DNA of 64,000 nucleotides from Arthrobacter sp. UM1 (GCF_020483305.1 NZ_JACWAB010000004.1:62001-126000); one strand, 5' to 3'; counted from the first letter of the stretch, positions 3,433 to 35,867 are shown. Numbers and translations are program-made. Notes: generated from the letters alone by a model not told the origin.

Positions 3433-5193
3433 ATGGCAACCAAAGACGCAGCGTCTGACAACGGCCAGCTCAGCGAGATCGCGAGCGGCTACCAGTTCTC
3501 CGGCGAGACCCTGAAGCTCGGTGTGGCGATGGCGGACGGCCAGCCCCACCCGGACGTCCAGGTCTCCCTGCCGATGTCGATGATGAACCGCCACGGCCTC
3601 GTCGCCGGCGCCACCGGCACGGGCAAGACCAAGACCCTCCAGCACATGGCGGAGCAGCTCTCCGCGCAGGGCGTTCCGGTCTTCCTCGCGGACATGAAGG
3701 GGGACCTCTCCGGGCTCGCGGCCGCGGGCGAGGCGAACGAGAAGCTCACGGCCCGCACGGAGTCGCTCGGACAGCAGTGGACCGGCACGGGTTTCCCGGT
3801 GGAGTTCTTCACCCTCGGCGGCGAGGGCACGGGCGTGCCGATCCGCGCCACGGTCTCCTCGTTCGGCCCGATCCTGCTCTCCCGCGTCATGGACCTCAAC
3901 GCCACGCAGGAGTCCAGCCTCCAGCTCATCTTCCACTACGCGGACCAGCAGGGTCTCGAGCTCTACAACCTGGCGGACCTGCGCGCGGTCATCCAGTTCC
4001 TCACCTCCCCCGAGGGCAAGGAAGCGCTGAGCAGCCTCGGCGGCCTCTCCAAGGCGACGGCGGGGGTCATCCTCCGCGAGCTCGTGGGCCTCGAGGCCGA
4101 GGGCATGGACGCGTTCTTCGGCGAGCCCGAGTTCGACACCCAGGACCTCCTCCGCACCGCCCAGGACGGCCGCGGGATCATCAGCGCGCTCGAGCTGAGC
4201 GACGTCGCCTCCAAGCCGCAGCTCTTCTCCACGTTCCTCATGTGGCTGCTCGCGGACCTCTTCCACGACCTCCCCGAGGTGGGAGACGTGGACAAGCCGA
4301 AGCTCGTCTTCTTCCTCGACGAGGCCCACCTCCTCTTCAACGGCGCCTCCAAGGCGTTCCTCGAGGCCATCACGCAGACCGTGCGGCTCATCCGCTCGAA
4401 GGGCGTGGGCATCTTCTTCGTCACGCAGACGCCCAAGGACGTGCCGGGCGACGTGCTCGGCCAGCTCGCGAACCGCGTCCAGCACGCGCTGCGCGCCTTC
4501 ACGCCCGACGACGCCAAGGCCCTCAAGGCCACCGTCTCCACCTTCCCGAAGTCCGGGTACGACCTGGAGAAGGTCCTCACGAGCGCAGGCATCGGCGAAG
4601 CTGTGGTCACCGTCATGACCGAGACCGGCGCACCCTCCCCCGTGGCCTGGACGCGGATGTTCGCGCCCGAGTCCCGGATGGCGCCCGCCCCGGAGGCCGT
4701 CCAGGAGAACACCGGCAACAGCCCGCTCATGACCAAGTACGGGACCGTGGTGGACTCCTACTCGGCGTTCGAGAAGCTCTCAGGCCAGGGCGCTTCGGGT
4801 CAGGGTGCAGAGCAGGGCATGGGTGACGGCGCGGGCCAGGCGTCCGGAGGGAACGACGACGCCGGCGCGCCCGCCCCCAGCGACGAGAACGGCGGATTCC
4901 GGCCCTACGGCGAGCAGACCGGCTGGAGCCAGGACGGCTCCGGGCAGAGCGGCGAGGGCGGCGCAGCCCAGCCGAGCGCCGCGGACCGCAAGGCCGCCGA
5001 GCGCGCCGCTCGCGAGGAGGCAGCGCGGCAGAAGGCCGAGGAGCGCGAGCGCCAGAAGCGCAACGAGGCCATCATGCGCGTGGGCACTAACGTGGCCTCG
5101 ACGCTGGGCAGGGAGATCGTCCGCAGCATCTTCGGCACGTCGAGCCGCAGCCGCCGGCGCGGCGGTGGCGGCCTCGGCGGACTGTTCGGCTAG
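3433..5193 (+). CDS. DUF853 / HerA-like P-loop ATPase
   Basis: A 586-aa ATPase of the HerA/FtsK-like helicase group (DUF853). The Walker A GATGTGKT is at residues 59-66, followed by the family block PVFLADMKGDLSGLA; Walker B is near residue 290 (KLVFFLDEAHLLF), then an arginine-finger region (QTVRLIRSKGVGIFFVTQTPKDVP). Residues about 440-545 are a Gly/Ala/Gln-rich linker with a charged helical segment, and the C-terminus is an Arg/Gly-rich tail (SRSRRRGGGGLGG), plausibly for DNA binding. The ATG lies 6 nt after a TACGCT box, suggesting a leaderless mRNA. The physiological role of DUF853 proteins is not established. Confidence 0.88.
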   Translation: MATKDAASDNGQLSEIASGYQFSGETLKLGVAMADGQPHPDVQVSLPMSMMNRHGLVAGATGTGKTKTLQHMAEQLSAQGVPVFLADMKGDLSGLAAAGEANEKLTARTESLGQQWTGTGFPVEFFTLGGEGTGVPIRATVSSFGPILLSRVMDLNATQESSLQLIFHYADQQGLELYNLADLRAVIQFLTSPEGKEALSSLGGLSKATAGVILRELVGLEAEGMDAFFGEPEFDTQDLLRTAQDGRGIISALELSDVASKPQLFSTFLMWLLADLFHDLPEVGDVDKPKLVFFLDEAHLLFNGASKAFLEAITQTVRLIRSKGVGIFFVTQTPKDVPGDVLGQLANRVQHALRAFTPDDAKALKATVSTFPKSGYDLEKVLTSAGIGEAVVTVMTETGAPSPVAWTRMFAPESRMAPAPEAVQENTGNSPLMTKYGTVVDSYSAFEKLSGQGASGQGAEQGMGDGAGQASGGNDDAGAPAPSDENGGFRPYGEQTGWSQDGSGQSGEGGAAQPSAADRKAAERAAREEAARQKAEERERQKRNEAIMRVGTNVASTLGREIVRSIFGTSSRSRRRGGGGLGGLFG

Positions 5194-7753: not shown

Positions 7754-8833
7754 ATGACCGAGTACCGATGGCTGGACTTCACCGCCGAGAACCCGAACCC
7801 GCCCGAGCTGGACGGCCTCTGCCACGTGCTCACCGCACCGAGCGAGCTCGTGTGGGGCGATCTCACCCTGCCGACCACGCCGGAGCTCCTCCAGTCCCGG
7901 CTCAAGCGCCCCGAGCAGCCGCTCTTCCTCCTCGCCGCGGTCGAGGCGGACGGCAAGGTGGTCGGCGCCGGCACTCTGCACCTCAACGAGGTGGAGAACC
8001 GGGATCTCGCGGAGATCGACGTCGCCACCGCGCTCGGCCGGGAGGGCCGCGGCATCGGATCGGAGCTCTTCAACCGGGCCCTGGAGCGGGCGCGGGATCT
8101 GGGGCGGACCAGGATCGAGGCCTGGACGGAGCACCGTCCGGAGGGCCTCACGCGCGACGACGACGCCGACTCCGCTCCCCTGCCCGAGACCGCGTGGAGG
8201 CTCAAGCGCAGCGACCGCGCCGTGCGGTTCGCCCTGGACCGCGGGCTCAGGCCGGGGCTCATGCAGCGCGTCTCGTCCGTCAGGGTCCGTGAGTCCGAGC
8301 GATTCCGGCGGTTCCTCGCCGAGACGCCGTCCGAGGCGCCGGCGGAGTACGAGCTGCACACGTTCGAGGGCGGCGTCCCCGACGAGCTCATGGAGGCCGT
8401 GTGCGGGCTCTTCTCCTCCTTCTCCACGGAGGCGCCGAGCGGCGAGATGGGCTGGGAGGCGGAGGTCTGGACGCCGGAGCGGGTGCGCAAGGCGGAGGAG
8501 GTGGCACTGGCGCGGAAGGAGACGCTCCTCTCCACGATCGCGGTCCACCGCAGCACCGGCGAGGGCGCGGCGTTCACGGCCTACGGGCGGTTCGCCACTG
8601 CGCCGCACCTGCTCCAGCAGAAGATCACGATGTCAGCGCCGGGCCACCGCGGGCACGGGCTCGGCGCCCTCGTGAAGCGGGCCAACGCCGTGGCGGCGCT
8701 CGAGCTCTGGCCCGAGGCCGAGGCGGTCCAGACCGACAACGCCGACCACAACGTCCACATGCTCCGGATCAACGAGGCCATGGGCTTCGAGACCGCCGGG
8801 GCGACGGTGGGGTGGACGGGGAGGATCGGCTGA
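7754..8833 (+). CDS. Tandem GNAT-domain acetyltransferase
   Basis: A 359-aa protein with two GCN5-related N-acetyltransferase folds. The first (about residues 40-160) has an acetyl-CoA P-loop REGRGIGSELF; the second (about 200-355) has PGHRGHGLGALVKR and the terminal NAVAALELWPEAEAVQTDNADHN pattern seen in mycothiol-synthase-like tandem GNATs. It is unlikely to be MshD itself because the context and motifs are generic. The substrate is unknown. The start is chosen from the leaderless promoter; no ribosome site precedes it. Confidence 0.82.
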   Translation: MTEYRWLDFTAENPNPPELDGLCHVLTAPSELVWGDLTLPTTPELLQSRLKRPEQPLFLLAAVEADGKVVGAGTLHLNEVENRDLAEIDVATALGREGRGIGSELFNRALERARDLGRTRIEAWTEHRPEGLTRDDDADSAPLPETAWRLKRSDRAVRFALDRGLRPGLMQRVSSVRVRESERFRRFLAETPSEAPAEYELHTFEGGVPDELMEAVCGLFSSFSTEAPSGEMGWEAEVWTPERVRKAEEVALARKETLLSTIAVHRSTGEGAAFTAYGRFATAPHLLQQKITMSAPGHRGHGLGALVKRANAVAALELWPEAEAVQTDNADHNVHMLRINEAMGFETAGATVGWTGRIG

Positions 8834-8969
8834 CGGGCCCTCGAACGGGCCGCTGGTCAACCGGCCGGGTCCGGCACGCCCTCGCATCGTTGCAGTTGCG
8901 TCACGGTTGCGCGCGCCGCTTGTCAGCGCAGGCGCGGGGAACGATGCTTGATATGGAGGTGCCCTGATC

Positions 8970-27863: not shown

Positions 27864-29825
27864 CTACTCCCCCAGGCGCCGGTCCGCGGCGGCCCGCCGC
27901 GCGAGCATCTCGTTGTAGGCGCGCAGCTCGGCGTCGTCGTCGCGCTCCGCCTTGCGGTCCTTGCGGGCGGTCTCCCGCGTGTCCGCACGGGCCCACATGA
28001 CCATGACGCCGAGGGCGACGACGAGGGTCGGGAGCTCGCCCACGCCCCACGTGATGCCGCCGCCGAGCTTCTGGTCCGAGATGGCGTCGAGACCCCAGGG
28101 GCGGCCCATGTTGCCGAACCAGAACGGCTGCAACAGCGTGTCCGATCCCATGAGCGTCACGCCGAAGAACGCGTGGAACGCCATCGTGGCGAAGAGCAGC
28201 ACGAGCCGCATCGGGTACGGGAAGCGCTTGGGCAGGGGGTCCACGCCGATCATCGTGAGGACGAAGATGTACCCCGTGAGCGTGAAGTGGACCACCATGA
28301 GCTCGTGGCCCACGTGGTACTTCATGGCCCAGAGGAACACGTCCGAGTAGTAGAAGATGATGATGGAGCCCGCGAAGTTGGCCGCCGCGAAAAGCGGGTT
28401 GGTCACGAGCCGGGACCACCACGAGTGCACGAACACGAGGATCCACTCGCGGGGCCCGCGCGAGCCGTCCCGCCGCGGGTGCAGCGCCCTCAGCGCGAGC
28501 GTCACAGGGGCGCCCATGACGAGGAACATGGGCACGAACATCGTGAGCGCCATGTGGTCCAGCATGTGCGTGGAGAACAGCACCATGCCGTAGACCGCCG
28601 GCGCGCCGGACGTGAAGTACGTCAGCGCGATGAGACCGAACACGAACGCCGCGAACCGGCCCACGGGCCAGCGGTCCCCGCGGCGGTGCAGCGCGAGCAT
28701 CCCTCGCACGTAGGCGATGAAGAGCCCCGCGCAGACCGCGATCCACATCCAGTCCGCGCGCCACTCGGTGAGATAGCGGATCGGGGTGAGCTCCGGCGGG
28801 AGCTCGTAGCCGGTGAGGATGCGGGCCGGCGTGGCGCTCGGCGGCAGCTGCTCGGGGCGCGGCGGGGCGGTGCGGGCCAGGCCCGCGGCGAGTCCGGAGA
28901 CGAGGCCGAGCACGGCCGTCTCGACGACGATGAGCCGCGTGAACAGCCGCGGCTCCTTCCCGATCCGCGGGATGGTGACGGAGCGGTGCAGCCAGCCGAG
29001 GTATCCGGCCAGCAGCGCCAGCACGGTCTTGAGGGCCACGATGGTGCCCCACGGCGAGAGCAGCTGGCCCAGGGAGGTGATGCGCAGCCCGGCGTTGACC
29101 ACGCCCGAGGCCACGACGAGCACGAGCGCGAGCGCCGCGATCGGCGAGTACCGGGCCGCGGCGGTCTCCGCGGCGGCGGCGTCCCTGCCGCGCCCCAGGA
29201 GGATTCCGCCGACGACGGCGAGCACGATCACGCCGCCCACCCAGAGGCTCGCGCCGAACAGGTGCAGGCCCATGGAGTTGACGGCGGCCATGTGGTCGTC
29301 GCCGCCCGCCGAGTGGCCCGTGATGGCCAGCGGCACGAGGCCGATGAGCGCCAGGATGAGCGTCAGCCCGATCGCGGTGAGGGACTCCACCGCGAAGACG
29401 AGCGTGCTCACCGCGCACGCGAGGATGAAGGCCACGAGCCAGGCCCGGCCTAGGTCGAAGTTGGTGAAGAAGTCTGCGAGCGCGTGCGTGTAGGCCGAGT
29501 CGCCGCGCAGGGCGAGGCCGGCCGAGTCCGCGTACGTGAGGATGCCGACGGCGGCCGCCGTCGCGGTCCACGCCATCGAGCCGATGCGGGCGAGGCGCAG
29601 GGAGAGGACGGAGCCGCGGGTCTGGTGCGGGAAGACGCATGCGGCGAAGACGAGGCCGGCGATCGTCGTCGCCGAGGCCACGTCGAAGACCGTCCGCGCG
29701 ATGGGAAGGCCCCAGCGGACGCCCGCGCCCGGGTCGCCGAGCTCCCGCGCCGCTGAGGCGCCGGTGAGCAGAAGGGCGCCCACCACGCCGAGGAGCGCGG
29801 CGGCGAGCGCGAGCCCCAGGGGCAT
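27864..29825 (-). CDS. CopD - CtaG fusion copper membrane protein
   Basis: A 653-aa polytopic protein. The first half (about residues 1-320) is CopD-like, with eight or so helices and the family's His-containing block TGHSAGGDDHMAAVNSMGLHLFGASLWVGG; the second half (about 340-620) is a CtaG/caa3-oxidase-assembly domain (YGMVLFSTHMLDHMALTMFVPMFLVMGAP; FHAFFGVTLMGSD). Such fusions are common in Actinobacteria and are linked to copper import or cytochrome oxidase maturation. It ends a four-gene copper operon, 130 nt after the PCuAC gene. The true start could be slightly upstream, as no clear ribosome site precedes this ATG. Confidence 0.9.
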   Translation of the reverse strand: MPLGLALAAALLGVVGALLLTGASAARELGDPGAGVRWGLPIARTVFDVASATTIAGLVFAACVFPHQTRGSVLSLRLARIGSMAWTATAAAVGILTYADSAGLALRGDSAYTHALADFFTNFDLGRAWLVAFILACAVSTLVFAVESLTAIGLTLILALIGLVPLAITGHSAGGDDHMAAVNSMGLHLFGASLWVGGVIVLAVVGGILLGRGRDAAAAETAAARYSPIAALALVLVVASGVVNAGLRITSLGQLLSPWGTIVALKTVLALLAGYLGWLHRSVTIPRIGKEPRLFTRLIVVETAVLGLVSGLAAGLARTAPPRPEQLPPSATPARILTGYELPPELTPIRYLTEWRADWMWIAVCAGLFIAYVRGMLALHRRGDRWPVGRFAAFVFGLIALTYFTSGAPAVYGMVLFSTHMLDHMALTMFVPMFLVMGAPVTLALRALHPRRDGSRGPREWILVFVHSWWSRLVTNPLFAAANFAGSIIIFYYSDVFLWAMKYHVGHELMVVHFTLTGYIFVLTMIGVDPLPKRFPYPMRLVLLFATMAFHAFFGVTLMGSDTLLQPFWFGNMGRPWGLDAISDQKLGGGITWGVGELPTLVVALGVMVMWARADTRETARKDRKAERDDDAELRAYNEMLARRAAADRRLGE

Positions 29826-29955
29826 GAGCCGGCGCAGGAAGGCGCTCGGCTCGAGCTCCTCCTGCTCGCGGGACGGGCGGGGGCCGGCCGCCCGGGAGCC
29901 CGAGGGGACGCGCCCCCGGGCCCTCAGACGGCCGGCCGAGTCCGAGCGGGTTCCG

Positions 29956-30513
29956 CTAGTGATGGTGCCCCCCGCTCGCCGCCTCGCCGACGGTCAGCTC
30001 GAGGTGGGCGGGGCCGGCGCTCGTCTTGAGGTTGACCACGATCTTGTCGCCCTTCTTGAGGTCCGCCTTCAGGCCCTTGACGGCGATGTGGTAGCCGTCG
30101 TGGGACAGGGTGAAGGTCTCGCCGGGCTTGATGGTCCAGCCCTTCTCGTCCACGGACATGGCGCCGTTGACGGTCTTGTGGAGCTCCACCGTGGAGGCGT
30201 AGTCCGAGGAGGCGGACTCGACGGTGATCGGCTTGTCGCCCTCGTTCTTGAGGCCGCCGAGCACGTAGGTCTTGCCGCCCTTCTCCGCCGCGCCGATCGT
30301 GGCGGACGCGCCCTCGATCGGAGCGTGGTGGTGCGGCTTGGTCTCGTCGACGTCGCCCGACGTCGAGGCGGACGCGCTCGGCGAGGAGCTCGAGGACTGG
30401 CTCGCCGAGGGAGACGAGCCGGAGCCCTGGGAGGAGCCGGAGCCGCAGGCCGTCAGGCCGAGGGCGAGCGCCGCGACGGCGGCGAGGGAGGTGAGGGTCT
30501 TGCTGTGCTGCAT
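29956..30513 (-). CDS. PCuAC copper-chaperone lipoprotein
   Basis: A 185-aa lipoprotein: hydrophobic leader with lipobox LTAC (Cys about 23), Ser-rich linker, then a PCuAC beta-sandwich. The family's copper-site region is visible as VELHKTVNGAMSVDE followed by FTLSHDGYHIAVKGL, although the classic HxM spacing is modified. Extra histidines occur in KPHHHAP and at the C-terminus (GGHHH). It probably carries Cu(I) outside the membrane toward cytochrome oxidase. It lies 6 nt after the CopC gene. Confidence 0.9.
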   Translation of the reverse strand: MQHSKTLTSLAAVAALALGLTACGSGSSQGSGSSPSASQSSSSSPSASASTSGDVDETKPHHHAPIEGASATIGAAEKGGKTYVLGGLKNEGDKPITVESASSDYASTVELHKTVNGAMSVDEKGWTIKPGETFTLSHDGYHIAVKGLKADLKKGDKIVVNLKTSAGPAHLELTVGEAASGGHHH

Positions 30514-30519
30514 GGAAGT

Positions 30520-31074
30520 TCAGTCCTTCTTCTTGCGCAGGCGGTAGCCGATGATGCTTCCGAAGATGCCGGCTGCCACTGCCGTGGTTCCGATGACGAA
30601 GAGCGGCCAGTTCACACTGGGCGTCTCGTTGTAGGGCTGGGTCTCCGTCTTGGCTTTGACGTTGCCGGACGGAGGCGCTGCAGACGCAGACTGGCTCTTG
30701 GTCGGATCGACCACGTTGAAGGTGATGATCCCGTCCACCGGATGACCGTCCGAGGAGACCACGCGCCACCGGATGCTTCCCTGCCCCGGGGGCAGGTCCT
30801 TCGGCATGTGGACGCGCACCTGATCTCGGGAGATCTTGGCGTCCACCGTGGTCCGCTTCCCGGATCCGTCCTCGACGACGATCTCCGAGCCGAACGTCTG
30901 GATCTTGTCCGAGTAGGTGAGGACGAAGTCCCGGTGCGTCGGCGGGATGTTCTGCCCGTCGCGGGGATCGGAGGAGACAAGCTGGTCATGGGCGGAAGCC
31001 GGTGCGGCCGCACCGCCCAGAACCGCGGCGAGGACGGCTGCTGAGGCAGCCCCTCGGCGAATCGCGGAGCTCAT
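30520..31074 (-). CDS. CopC-domain copper-binding membrane-anchored protein
   Basis: A 184-aa exported protein. The signal peptide ends ASA with His29 as the first mature residue (HDQLVSSDP), matching the N-terminal histidine brace of CopC proteins; the second ligand is His in VVSSDGHPVDG. Residues about 155-175 form a C-terminal transmembrane helix followed by KKKD, anchoring it to the outer face of the membrane. It should bind Cu(II) and hand it to the CopD protein two genes downstream. Confidence 0.93.
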   Translation of the reverse strand: MSSAIRRGAASAAVLAAVLGGAAAPASAHDQLVSSDPRDGQNIPPTHRDFVLTYSDKIQTFGSEIVVEDGSGKRTTVDAKISRDQVRVHMPKDLPPGQGSIRWRVVSSDGHPVDGIITFNVVDPTKSQSASAAPPSGNVKAKTETQPYNETPSVNWPLFVIGTTAVAAGIFGSIIGYRLRKKKD

Positions 31075-31116
31075 GGGGTTGGGGTCCTTTCGTGGTTGCG
31101 GGAGAGCCTGGCTGCG

Positions 31117-31782
31117 TCAGGCGGCCGGCGGCCCGCGGAGCCCCCAGGCGGCCACGTTGCAGAGGCCTGGGCGCAGGGAGAGCGGCTCCCGGGAGCCGCT
31201 CGGGGATGGACCCGCGGCCGCGTCCAGGCGGCGGCGGACGAGTGAGTACGCGTGCGAGACTGCGAGGGCCCCCGCGAGGACCGTCTCGGCGATCCAGGCG
31301 GGCAGCGCGGAGGCGCGCAGGGCGAGCGTGCGGACGACGGCGTCCGAGCGGTGCAGGCCCGCGAGGACCAGGCCCACGGAGAGCATCCACGCGGCGGCGT
31401 GGAGCAGGAGCATGGCGGGGTGGGCCAGGGAGTCCAGCGGCGTGGAGTCCACGGGAGGCCCGGCCTGCGGCGCGATGAGCTCGCCGTGGTGTCCCGCGCC
31501 CGGCGAATGGGCGTGGACGCGGCCGGCGGCGTGCCCCGAGACGGCGAAGATGCCGTGGAAGGCGAGCTGCCCCAGGCCGAGGATCGCGGCGACGCCCGCC
31601 GCGCTGTGGCGCAGGCGCATGAGGGCGGAGGCAGCGGAGCTCGCGATGAGCCACGCAAGCAGCACTCCCCCGAGGGAGAGCGGGTGCTCCTGGCCCATGG
31701 CGGCCCCGGCGACGACGTGTCCCGCCGCCGCGAGCACTGTGGCGGCGGTGGAGAGCACGACGACGCTCAGCAGTCGCGGCAT
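31117..31782 (-). CDS. His-containing membrane protein, first gene of copper operon
   Basis: A 221-aa membrane protein with five or six hydrophobic segments and a periplasmic-side loop rich in His (GRVHAHSPGAGHHGE near residues 86-100). I do not recognise the family. The ATG at 31782 is preceded by GGGGGAGG, so I prefer it to the GTG 21 nt upstream. It leads the CopC-PCuAC-CopD/CtaG operon (42-nt gap to CopC), so a role in copper binding or transport is inferred from position and histidines only. Confidence 0.7.
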   Translation of the reverse strand: MPRLLSVVVLSTAATVLAAAGHVVAGAAMGQEHPLSLGGVLLAWLIASSAASALMRLRHSAAGVAAILGLGQLAFHGIFAVSGHAAGRVHAHSPGAGHHGELIAPQAGPPVDSTPLDSLAHPAMLLLHAAAWMLSVGLVLAGLHRSDAVVRTLALRASALPAWIAETVLAGALAVSHAYSLVRRRLDAAAGPSPSGSREPLSLRPGLCNVAAWGLRGPPAA

Positions 31783-31818
31783 TCCTCCCCCTTCACGGGC
31801 CACATCAGGTACCCCGAC

Positions 31819-32285: not shown

Positions 32286-32511
32286 GATGTTCCTCCTATG
32301 AGGTTCGGTGTGTTCTTGAGCGCGAGGCTGTGCCCCGGCTACTGCCTTGAACATACCAGCGTCATGGCCAGTTCGCCGGAAAAATCCCTGGATTCCTGCG
32401 GATCTCCCAGGTTTTTGAAGGTTCCCGAGGGGTTCGAGGGGGCGTGTCGGGGGCTTCGCGGACGCCTGAAGGCGGTTCGCGGACAGGTAGTGAGGTTATC
32501 TAAGTACGTGC

Positions 32512-32561
32512 GTTCGTCCTATGATTGCCGCTGGCCCCCGAACGAACAGGAGCACCCTCAG
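32512..32561 (+). promoter_or_regulatory. Shared promoter/leader of secreted family, copy 1
   Basis: CGTCCTATGATTGCCGCTGGC and the following AACAGGAGCACCCTCAG recur before the paralogues at 33997 and 34914. TATGAT (32520-32525) would be the -10, 36 nt before the ATG; AGGAG is the ribosome site. The -35 region is not conserved between copies. Confidence 0.55.
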
Positions 32562-33320
32562 ATGGATCAACCCCGTCACCCTGCCCCCTCGCGCCGCCGA
32601 GTAGCCCAGGCCGCCTGGGCGGCGCCCGCCATCCTCGCCACAGCCGCAGCCCCGGCGACCAGCGCCTCGACGCCCAATGCGACGCCGACTCCGACTCCTA
32701 CTCCGACACCCAACCCCTACTACAACACCCCCGTGAACGATTCAATCGTGCGCAAGGGCACTGTCGTACAACAGCTCTTTTTCTACGACGGCGACAAGTA
32801 CTTCCACTACACGGGAAACGCGGCCACCAGCAAGAAAGTCACCGACGACAACTGGGCCATGGAACGCAAGACTGCGTCATGGCACAATCTCGTTCCCGGC
32901 CGCACTTACACCTTCCAGATCACCGCCAATGTAGGCCCAAAGGGGCACTGCCCAGCCGCCACGGTGAACAAGACAATGGAGATCTGGATCTCGAACGACG
33001 GTGGAGACAAGTGGCAGAACGTTGCCAACCTCCGGTCTAGCGACGACGCGGTGGCCTCTCCGAGGGCTGAGGTTCCTGCCACGACGCTGAAGTACCCCTT
33101 CCCCAAGGACTACTGCAACAACGACAAGAACGATGTGATCTGGGGCGAGCCGACGACCGTCACATTCAAGGGCACGGCCGGCCCAGACGGCGTCCTCAGG
33201 TTCCGGTACAACGCCTGGATGCAGCCGCAGCCCCCGGGCCAATACCCATATCCTTGGGGCGGCCACGTCAATTGGGGACCCGCGATCATGCGAGTGACCC
33301 ATCCCCGCATAGTCGACTGA
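32562..33320 (+). CDS. Tat-type secreted protein, family member 1
   Basis: A 252-aa exported protein of a family I do not recognise. The N-terminus has SRRRVAQAAWAAPAILATAAAPATSAS, a Micrococcaceae-style twin-arginine signal, then a Thr/Pro repeat linker (PTPTPTPTPN). The mature region shares with its neighbours a W.xERK.A.W.NLVPGRTYTF motif (near residue 107), a C-P-A-A..NK cysteine segment, a second Cys in FPKDYCNN and the end TVTFKGTAGPDGVLRFRYNAWM. The pattern suggests a beta-sandwich with a disulfide, secreted or wall-associated. It is first of a tandem cluster of three. Confidence 0.75.
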   Translation: MDQPRHPAPSRRRVAQAAWAAPAILATAAAPATSASTPNATPTPTPTPTPNPYYNTPVNDSIVRKGTVVQQLFFYDGDKYFHYTGNAATSKKVTDDNWAMERKTASWHNLVPGRTYTFQITANVGPKGHCPAATVNKTMEIWISNDGGDKWQNVANLRSSDDAVASPRAEVPATTLKYPFPKDYCNNDKNDVIWGEPTTVTFKGTAGPDGVLRFRYNAWMQPQPPGQYPYPWGGHVNWGPAIMRVTHPRIVD

Positions 33321-33329
33321 CCTTCCGCG

Positions 33330-33373
33330 ACGCGGCAGCCCGCCTCCTTCCTTTCCGAGGCGGGCCGCCGCGT
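33330..33373 (+). terminator. Hairpin after family member 1
   Basis: 17-bp arms ACGCGGCAGCCCGCCTC and near-complement enclose a 10-nt loop, starting 10 nt after the stop. One A/G mismatch; no T-tract. Confidence 0.65.
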
Positions 33374-33384
33374 TCCCCGCCGCA

Positions 33385-33850
33385 CCGTTGCCACAGGCTT
33401 TTGGGCGGCACCCGCCGCCGTCGCCCAGGTTGGGGCGCGATCGACTATTCCGGCCGCTGCATGAGCAAGCACGCCAACGACGTGGCGAGCACAGACTTCG
33501 AGAACAACTGGTTCGCGGCCCGCGCCAATCACGTCTGGCGAAACCCGACGCCCCGGAAGCTCCACACGTTCCCAATCACCACGAGGGGCCAGCCGTATGA
33601 CGCTCGCCCGGCCATGGGCTCAAGCCATACCGTCCTGGCCTAAAGCTCGAGCGGCTGCCGGACGAGGACCGAGAACGCCAAAATCCTGTCCCTGAAGACG
33701 GGCCCCACTTCGTCTGTGGCGACGACGGAGCTCCCCTACGGCATCGCAGAGGACGTCTGCAACGACGTTCGCCGGGAGACCTCGGGGTCCAAAGCAGACC
33801 GTCACCTTCCCGCAGACCGCGCGCCATGACGTTCCCACCGGAAATGAACG
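33385..33850 (+). pseudogene. Decayed copy of the secreted family (member between 1 and 2)
   Basis: Fragments in shifting frames align in order with the intact paralogues: ATGFWAAPAAVA (signal-peptide core), DFENNWFAARANHVWRNPTPRKLHTF (equivalent to DFHQHWAVERKEGVWQNLVPGKTYRF), PYDARPAMGSSHTVL, then an in-frame TAA at 33641, then ATTELPYGIAEDVCNDV and, in another frame, GPKQTVTFPQTA. There is no start codon or twin-arginine motif and at least two frame changes. This explains the apparently empty gap between members 1 and 2. Confidence 0.7.
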
Positions 33851-33946
33851 ATTTGAGCTGACCATTCCGGAGCTGGTCGGACTGGCCTGAGTCCCGACGA
33901 GGGCCGGAACGCTTGCACCCCTAACCAAACACGATGAGAACGTCTG

Positions 33947-33996
33947 TTCGTTCCATGATTGCCGTTGGCCTCCGACCAGAACAGGAACACCTCCAG
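33947..33996 (+). promoter_or_regulatory. Shared promoter/leader of secreted family, copy 2
   Basis: TCGTTCCATGATTGCCGTTGGC followed by AACAGGAACACCTCCAG matches copy 1 almost base for base; CATGAT (33954-33959) is 37 nt before the ATG. Confidence 0.5.
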
Positions 33997-34782
33997 ATGG
34001 ACCACCCTCACCTCCCAACCCCCTCACGTCGGCGTGTAGCGCAGGCCGCGTGGGCAACCCCTGCTGTCCTTGCCGCCGCAGCAGCGCCTGCGGCGAGCGC
34101 CTCAACTCCAGCCCCGGTACAGAGGTACGTCCAGGCCCCCACCGGAACGGAGAGCCAGGGCACGCTCGTGCTGGGCCGGCTCAGCAACCACTACAGCCCC
34201 ACCACAAACTCCACGTACACGAACCGCTCGGTGAACGCGATCTATCTGAACAAGCTCTCCGAGTCCTATACGACGAGCAGGTTCAGCGACGCCGACTGGG
34301 CCCTGGAGAGACGTGAGGCCTTCTGGGAAGGCTTGGTCCCAGGCAGGCTGTACACGTTCACGATGAGGGCGAGGTCCGCCCCGTACTACCGATGCCCCAC
34401 CGGCACCGCGGGAAAAGCCGTCCTCATCTCCAGCTCGCCAGACGGCAGCACGTGGAGGCAGCAGACGCATCTGCGCTCCCACCGGAAGGCGCCCAAGCCC
34501 GTGGGCGCCACGGCCCCCGAGACAGTCTTCGCTTCCTCTCTGCCGGACGACATCTGCGAAAAGGCGGACACGCTGTCCTGGAGCGAGTGGAAGCAGATCT
34601 CCTTCACCGAGACAGCAGGCGCCAAGGGCAGGGTCCACTTCCGCTATGACGCCTGGATGCCCCCGCGGGTCTGGGACAACGAAGTGCTGACCGCCTCCCC
34701 AGAGGATCCCGACGACACCGCGACAGAGTTCCCCACCGGCAACGCGTCCTTCCAGTGGAGCCGGCCCACGATTGTCGGCTAG
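33997..34782 (+). CDS. Tat-type secreted protein, family member 2
   Basis: A 261-aa exported paralogue. The signal is SRRRVAQAAWATPAVLAAAAAPAASAS. The mature part keeps DADWALERREAFWEGLVPGRLYTFTMRA, RCPTGTAGKAVLISSSPDGSTW, LPDDICEKADT and ISFTETAGAKGRVHFRYDAWM, ending WSRPTIVG. Two cysteines (RCPTG; DDICEK) are conserved with the other members, consistent with one disulfide. I chose the ATG at 33997 from the shared leader; an upstream in-frame ATG at 33934 would add a non-homologous extension. Function unknown. Confidence 0.75.
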   Translation: MDHPHLPTPSRRRVAQAAWATPAVLAAAAAPAASASTPAPVQRYVQAPTGTESQGTLVLGRLSNHYSPTTNSTYTNRSVNAIYLNKLSESYTTSRFSDADWALERREAFWEGLVPGRLYTFTMRARSAPYYRCPTGTAGKAVLISSSPDGSTWRQQTHLRSHRKAPKPVGATAPETVFASSLPDDICEKADTLSWSEWKQISFTETAGAKGRVHFRYDAWMPPRVWDNEVLTASPEDPDDTATEFPTGNASFQWSRPTIVG

Positions 34783-34863
34783 GCGGCCCAGCTCGGAGAG
34801 CAACGCGTGCGTTCTGAACGGAATAGCTCTACGCAGCCCTAACTAGGCCTTCTACGCACGCTC

Positions 34864-34913
34864 ATGCGTTCTATTATTGCTCTTGGGTCCGATCATGACA
34901 GGAGCGCTCTCTG
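34864..34913 (+). promoter_or_regulatory. Shared promoter/leader of secreted family, copy 3
   Basis: A more diverged version: GCGTTCTATTATTGCTCTTGG, then GACAGGAGCGCTCTCTG. TATTAT (34872-34877) is 36 nt from the ATG, the same spacing as the other copies. Confidence 0.45.
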
Positions 34914-35666
34914 ATGAACTCACTTAGCCGCCCACACCCCTCCCGCCGTCGCGTAGCCCAGGCCGCGTGGGCAGCGCCTGCCGTTCTCGCTGCCGCTGCA
35001 GCGCCTGCGGCAAGCGCCTCGACGCCGACCCCGAAGCCGCCGCTGCCGCCTGAATACCTCATGGATGTCTCGGGGACGTCGACTCTCCGGGGCAGGTTCG
35101 ACGAAGCCCTGAGAAACTTCCAGACGTACGGCACGATGTACGCGAACTACTCCGTCAACGACGTCTACGAGGTGGAGGACTTCCATCAGCACTGGGCCGT
35201 TGAGCGCAAAGAAGGAGTCTGGCAGAACCTCGTCCCAGGGAAGACCTACAGGTTCTCCGTCTCGGCTTCGAGCGCCCCGTATTTCGACTGCAGGTCCGGC
35301 ACCGCGAGCAAGACCCTGCTCGTCTTCAGCTCCCCCGATGGCATGAGCTGGGCGCAGAGCGCGAATTTCCGGTCCCAGGAGGGCGGCTCACGGCCGCCGG
35401 GCGCGTCCCGCCCGGAGACCACTCTGGCCCTCCCCCTCGCCACGACGTATTGCACCCAAGACTTCTCGAAGCGGCACTGGGGGCCGTCGAAGACCGTCAC
35501 CTTCTCCCAGACGGCAGGCCCGGACGGGAAGGTCCGATTCCGCTTCGACGCATGGCTCCGAACCCGCATTCGGAAAGATGTCTCAACCGTTCCCGGCAGC
35601 TATCCCACAAGCGCCACAACAGGAAACGCGTTCATGCGGTGGAGCCGGCCCGAGATCGTGGCCTGA
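34914..35666 (+). CDS. Tat-type secreted protein, family member 3
   Basis: A 250-aa exported paralogue. It has SRRRVAQAAWAAPAVLAAAAAPAASAS, then DFHQHWAVERKEGVWQNLVPGKTYRFSVSASSAPYFDC, TLLVFSSPDGMSW, TTYCTQD, TVTFSQTAGPDGKVRFRFDAWL and the terminal MRWSRPEIVA. Conserved cysteines match members 1 and 2. Identity between mature regions is moderate while the signal peptides are nearly identical, so the copies have diverged mainly outside the export signal. Confidence 0.75.
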   Translation: MNSLSRPHPSRRRVAQAAWAAPAVLAAAAAPAASASTPTPKPPLPPEYLMDVSGTSTLRGRFDEALRNFQTYGTMYANYSVNDVYEVEDFHQHWAVERKEGVWQNLVPGKTYRFSVSASSAPYFDCRSGTASKTLLVFSSPDGMSWAQSANFRSQEGGSRPPGASRPETTLALPLATTYCTQDFSKRHWGPSKTVTFSQTAGPDGKVRFRFDAWLRTRIRKDVSTVPGSYPTSATTGNAFMRWSRPEIVA

Positions 35667-35673
35667 CCGCCGG

Positions 35674-35800
35674 GGCCGGGACTGCACGTTCACGGTCTCG
35701 GCCCAGGCGGCTCCCGACGGCGAGTCCACGGCGATGGCCGATGCAGATCTCGGTCCCGACGGTCCCCGGTCCCCGGTCCTCGGCCCCGACGATCGTCAGC
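35674..35800 (+). pseudogene. Short remnant of another secreted-family copy
   Basis: Right after member 3, one frame reads GRDCTFTVSAQAAPDGESTA, matching GRLYTFTMRARSAP and YRFSVSASSAP of the intact paralogues; another frame then reads SSAPTIVS, matching the family C-terminus WSRPTIVG. The N-terminal half and most of the middle are missing. The match is short, so this is a probable rather than certain remnant. Confidence 0.42.
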
Positions 35801-35811
35801 CGAAACGCACG

Positions 35812-35841
35812 AAGGGCGCCACCCGAACGGGTGGCGCCCTT
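35812..35841. terminator. Hairpin between secreted cluster and rpsN
   Basis: A perfect 13-bp stem AAGGGCGCCACCC/GGGTGGCGCCCTT with a GAAC loop, 26 nt beyond the rpsN stop. Likely bidirectional. Confidence 0.75.
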
Positions 35842-35867
35842 CTCTGCTCTGGATCAGCCGGAGAGGC

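Follow-up and report, generated by a model that had tools for sequence, protein, structure and literature searches.

Three intact genes (T1, T2 and T3) and a decayed fourth copy lie between rpsN (S14) and an HU gene in the 64,000-nucleotide stretch of DNA analysed here (the window), which comes from a 2.39-Mb genome of Arthrobacter sp. UM1, whose genus appears to belong in the Micrococcaceae. An earlier, sequence-only reading had described three intact genes with products of about 250–260 amino acids, and open reading frames of 252, 261 and 250 amino acids are indeed present; the interval it gave begins at 32512 and so includes the first promoter. The features, with window coordinates, are as follows.

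32513-32561, + strand: T1 leader, with a -10-like TATGAT (32520-32525), a conserved 5′ leader and a ribosome-binding site
32562-33320, + strand: T1, 252 aa, with a Tat signal (aa 1-36), a Thr/Pro-rich linker, a mature domain predicted to be a CBM4-like jelly-roll and two conserved Cys
33330-33373, + strand: hairpin, probable terminator, 9 nt downstream of the T1 stop codon (-37.6 kcal/mol and z -5.0 for the fold of 33318-33385)
about 33378-33881, + strand: decayed remains of a fourth copy, situated between T1 and T2, broken across several frames and interrupted by an internal stop (tblastn against T3, E 8.65e-9)
33378-33437, 33476-33766 and about 33780-33881, + strand: signal remnant, core and C-terminal remnant of the decayed copy
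33947-33996, + strand: T2 leader, with a -10-like CATGAT (33954-33959)
33997-34782, + strand: T2, 261 aa, with a Tat signal and a mature domain
34865-34913, + strand: T3 leader, with a -10-like TATTAT (34872-34877)
34914-35666, + strand: T3, 250 aa, with a Tat signal and a mature domain; aa 60-120 weakly match Pfam CBM_4_9
35811-35842, unstranded: strong hairpin that separates T3 from rpsN and probably terminates transcription in both directions (-40.9 kcal/mol and z -6.5 for the fold of 35800-35865)

The first 36 residues of the three products are 75–81% identical and carry the signal SRRRVAQAAWA(A/T)PA(I/V)LA(T/A)AAAPA(T/A)SAS, which bears out the description of almost identical twin-arginine signals. 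Both cysteines, the W.xER...W..LVPG..Y.F core and the TVTF..TAG..G..RFRYDAW end reported from the sequence are likewise conserved in the three-way alignment. The proteins terminate in RPEIVA, RPTIVG and HPRIVD; the features of sortase substrates (a C-terminal LPXTG, helix and basic tail) are absent from all three, and no wall anchor is visible.

The -10-like elements TATGAT, CATGAT and TATTAT end 36, 37 and 36 nt upstream of the start codon, the spacing that had been noted. A + strand scan for sigma-70 promoters gave none with an identifiable -35 box, so the promoter assignment is drawn solely from the conserved -10. The three genes had been thought to share one promoter; what they share is not a common promoter, because the leader is repeated in front of every gene. 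A pattern derived from the three leaders, TKCGTYCYATKATTGCYNNTGG, has a chance expectation of 0.04 within the window and occurs in the whole genome at the T1–T3 leaders only, even when 3 mismatches are allowed. The proposed genome survey for dispersed members with this leader thus yields nothing besides the three tandem copies; the dispersed item is the signal class, found on unrelated cargos with different leaders. Given their own leaders and the strong hairpins after T1 and T3, the three genes look monocistronic, as separate parallel transcription units. A riboswitch or other RNA element in the leader was rejected, with no Rfam match and folding no better than that of shuffled sequences.

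Beside the HU gene lies a copper cluster (window 27864-31803, - strand) that encodes a CtaG/CopD fusion, a PCu(A)C chaperone and CopC, together with an unannotated 228-aa protein weakly conserved in a sibling species (G001).

Divergence and distribution of the family

The mature parts of T1–T3 are 32–40% identical, compared with 75–81% for the signals, in agreement with the earlier observation that they diverge far more than signals and leaders. Differences at third codon positions are about equal in the signal (0.39-0.61 among T1–T3 pairs) and the mature part (0.51-0.60), which indicates that dS is saturated; because this applies to the signal too, its likeness does not stem from recent duplication. 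NG86 dN/dS values, unreliable at such divergence, are 0.53-0.68 for the mature part and 0.06-0.23 for the signal, all below 1. With synonymous sites saturated and dN/dS below 1, the data give no support to positive selection, and the suggestion of diversifying selection falls away. Instead, purifying selection looks to hold the signal and leader while the cargo diverges quickly.

Searches with the mature part agree with the view of an unrecognised tandem Tat-type family. No Pfam or NCBIfam family matched T1–T3 above cut-off; a profile of the three found no relative among PDB sequences, and single-sequence PDB matches were at chance level (E 0.06 and above). Among 395 genomes of the bacterial family there were two short, chance-level matches and nothing further, the two sibling species of the genus held nothing above chance level, and a pattern scan of 84,980 species genomes gave no match. 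To the extent of the genomes examined, the mature family is an orphan of its own species. Two possibilities were rejected: a phage or mobile origin, with no match in phages or viral contigs, and homology to other Tat cargos of the genus, with an hhalign probability of at most 1.2% and a best hmmsearch E value of 0.33 (filters off).

The rpsN–HU interval (window 32355-35867) has three different contents among three species of one genus. It spans about 0.2 kb and is empty in sibling G001 (8715-8900 of its contig), and in sibling G002 it is filled by a PadR-type regulator and a membrane protein (3508-4880; read from sequence alone). The interval may be an insertion-tolerant site.

Predicted fold of the mature domains

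Structure prediction from three-row alignments gave a jelly-roll β-sandwich for both T1 (pLDDT 65.6, pTM 0.70) and T3 (pLDDT 65.5, pTM 0.67); the two models are not fully independent, because the same three sequences underlie both. In VIA-align the T3 model matched a hyaluronan-binding module (4d0q, Z 9.2), CBM4-2 (2y6j, Z 9.1) and SGBP-B (7kwc, Z 9.0), and the T1 model matched CBM, GH101 and MAM domains (Z 8.0-8.7). The top rows for the two models together comprise CBM4-2, hyaluronan-binding, GH101-associated, SGBP-B and MAM domains at Z 8.0-9.2, where Z 8-9 is barely above the stated VIA-align background for unmatched models and model confidence is low to medium. CBM4-2 (2y6j) scores Z 8.2 with T1 and 9.1 with T3, at a pLDDT of about 65 and a Z margin of less than 1 over other jelly-rolls, and Foldseek TM-scores reach at most about 0.46. 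The models agree with the sole Pfam lead of T3, a sub-threshold match to CBM_4_9 (E 0.094, 13.5 bits against a cut-off of 25.9 bits) for which T1 and T2 are unlisted.

On these models, the mature parts of T1–T3 are probably sugar-binding-type β-sandwiches. What the models point to is a fold class, not a family, and glycan and protein binding are not separated by it: Eph and MAM domains, which bind proteins, score about as well as glycan-binding modules. The sequence-only reading had recognised no known domain, which holds at sequence thresholds and gives way, at the level of predicted fold, to a CBM4/MAM-type jelly-roll.

Two known modules illustrate the likeness and its limits. CBM4/9 (PF02018; CBM4-2 of the Rhodothermus marinus xylanase, 2y6j and 1k42) resembles T1 and T3 in predicted jelly-roll and similar size, with 136-137 residues aligned; however, T1–T3 fall below the Pfam cut-off, show 10-13% identity to 2y6j where T1 and T3 were aligned to it, and are predicted to be stand-alone Tat-exported domains rather than enzyme modules. 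The top T3 match, the hyaluronan-binding module of pneumococcal hyaluronate lyase (4d0q), aligns over 131 residues with an rmsd of 3.3, but it shares 10% identity with T3 and belongs to a large enzyme.

A Tat signal class and exopolysaccharide genes

A search with T3 recovered the same signal on many beta-rich proteins whose mature parts are unrelated. When 31 signals were aligned, RR, W, P and AAPA-x-A-S proved near-invariant, and the signal RRxVxxxAAWxxP...AAPAxAAS is, as judged from this conservation, a distinct Tat class. By profile, the class has 9 members in the T1–T3 genome, 17 in G001 and 9 in G002 (82% complete); other genomes of the family have 0-7, with none in 41 of the 61 family genomes, and in an order-level sample the class occurs in 22 of 119 genomes. 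The features of Tat substrates (twin-arginine, a weakly hydrophobic h-region and an A-x-A site) are present in T1–T3 and common to the generic Tat models, NCBIfam TIGR01409 and Pfam PF10518, neither of which is listed for the three proteins at E up to 1; the present class differs in its conserved W-x-x-P and AAPA-x-A-S. TatC is encoded in the T1–T3 genome (E 2.9e-53), and each of the three species of the genus has tatC. We found no published description of the signal motif in a search of the literature outside subscription journals.

The cargos of the class form several families unrelated by hhalign, and fusions behind the same signal suggest that modules are shuffled among them. A tandem array of five genes lies elsewhere in the T1–T3 genome (contig C16, 5255-11637, - strand). 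Their products, of 337-369 aa, carry a signal of this Tat class, an N-module that contains Cys, a Pro/Thr linker and a C-module whose relatives are stand-alone Tat proteins in the sibling species; most of the five genes have in common a leader of their own, CTGAGAAGAAGGNTCACCCCCGTGAC. One G001 protein joins the N-module of this family to the C-module of another Tat family, a case of domain shuffling behind the same signal.

Positions of class members were compared with those of Wzz/BY-kinase genes in the 27 genomes that have both. A member lies within 5 kb of Wzz/BY-kinase in 11 of the 27 (0.38 expected) and within 10 kb of Wzz in 14 (0.75 expected), the latter representing 10 genera by their labels; none of 200,000 simulations reached the observed proximity under a simple null of uniform placement, in a set of genomes that are related to one another. 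Loci read in detail have Wzz/BY-kinase and a low-molecular-weight (LMW) tyrosine phosphatase followed by tandem Tat genes, with genes for pyruvyl transferase, glycosyltransferases, flippase, Wzy and LytR-CpsA-Psr nearby. The arrangement of Wzz/BY-kinase, LMW tyrosine phosphatase and Tat-signal genes recurs in several Micrococcales families. Proximity to exopolysaccharide (EPS) genes holds for other genera, whereas the T1–T3 cluster itself lies outside any EPS locus; its genome has no match to Wzz at 1e-5, and the single Bac_transf gene lies on a different contig (C11:119281).

PEP-CTERM proteins offer a functional analogy, not one of membership. They occur several to many per genome, with a shared sorting signal, cargos of little homology either mutually or to known proteins, mostly single-gene operons and an association with EPS genes, and were not found in Actinomycetes (Haft et al. 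2006, PMC1569441). The Tat class likewise combines many diverse cargos, a shared signal and an EPS association, but its signal is an N-terminal Tat signal and its hosts are Gram-positive actinobacteria; the C-terminal Pro-Glu-Pro, transmembrane helix and basic cluster of PEP-CTERM are absent from T1–T3. The repeated placement of the class beside EPS genes in related bacteria suggests a set of matrix proteins that has apparently never been named.

Candidate roles of T1–T3

We tentatively favour, at slightly less than even confidence, a reading in which T1–T3 are Tat-secreted single-domain glycan- or matrix-binding proteins of an EPS-associated secretome. Each gene would form a transcription unit of its own behind its copy of the leader, and its product would fold in the cytoplasm, be exported by the Tat translocase through the specialised signal and be cleaved by signal peptidase after A-x-A. 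The released protein, a single jelly-roll domain of about 200 aa behind a short Thr/Pro-rich linker, would probably hold one disulfide and, lacking a wall anchor, would most likely bind glycan, either the cell's own extracellular polysaccharide or a surface glycan in its niche. The binding and matrix role is proposed because of the fold class and the genomic company of the signal class. T1–T3 would then be one lineage-specific cargo family in a wider, signal-defined and EPS-associated Micrococcales secretome in which the signal is conserved and cargos turn over, a turnover suggested by mature families unrelated by hhalign and by a site that is empty in G001 and differently filled in G002.

A jelly-roll of the MAM or Eph-ligand-binding kind could instead serve secreted protein-binding adhesins or receptors in cell–cell or host contact, which we consider unlikely. 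Eph ligand-binding and MAM domains are among the top Foldseek ranks, VIA-align places a MAM domain at Z 8.7 and meprin MAM at Z 8.0-8.2, and species-specific, quickly diverging cargos would suit such a role. Against it, CBM4 and hyaluronan-binding modules have a slight edge for T3 (ties within Z 1), CBM_4_9 is the sole Pfam lead, members of the signal class elsewhere lie close to EPS genes and the proteins show no visible wall anchor.

That the cluster is a newly captured, largely decaying orphan of no great functional importance, retained only through a leader that remains active, is improbable. In favour are the pseudogene among the four copies, the differing state of the site in two siblings (empty in one, otherwise occupied in the other) and a GC3 lower in the cluster (0.79-0.84) than in its neighbours (0.84-0.97). 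Against it, three full frames persist with about 40% identity between them, and core residues, signals and leaders remain conserved; such survival at saturated synonymous sites would need long purifying selection. It is more doubtful still that the three are not binding proteins but secreted jelly-roll enzymes, for example lyases or cyclases like HpiC1: HpiC1 entries do appear in the VIA-align list (Z 7.7-7.8), but not among the best rows, and no catalytic motif was identified. Toxin-like or competition effectors under diversifying selection would account for the tandem arrangement, the fast divergence, the small size of the secreted products and the lack of homologues, but are very improbable, since Pfam and NCBIfam give no toxin domain, no recognised immunity gene sits beside any copy, the genes look monocistronic, dN/dS is below 1 with dS saturated and the predicted fold is a binding one; the earlier label 'toxin-like' is left without any support.

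The glycan- and matrix-binding reading of T1–T3 has a broader extension, which we regard as possible though rather doubtful: that a dedicated Tat signal class marks a fast-turnover repertoire of EPS-associated matrix proteins in Micrococcales. Such a system would parallel PEP-CTERM sorting, at the N-terminus and in Gram-positive bacteria, and it might have a recognition or processing partner of its own; T1–T3 would be one lineage-specific jelly-roll branch of it. If the class truly marks matrix proteins, its N-terminal motif would list candidates in many actinobacteria, among cargos without homology or a curated family, and the PEP-CTERM system of Gram-negative bacteria would have a parallel in actinobacteria. 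The question of why folded, Tat-exported proteins serve matrix building would also become testable. The T1–T3 family would be an extreme case of this design, an orphan in which tag and leader are conserved and the cargo changes fast.
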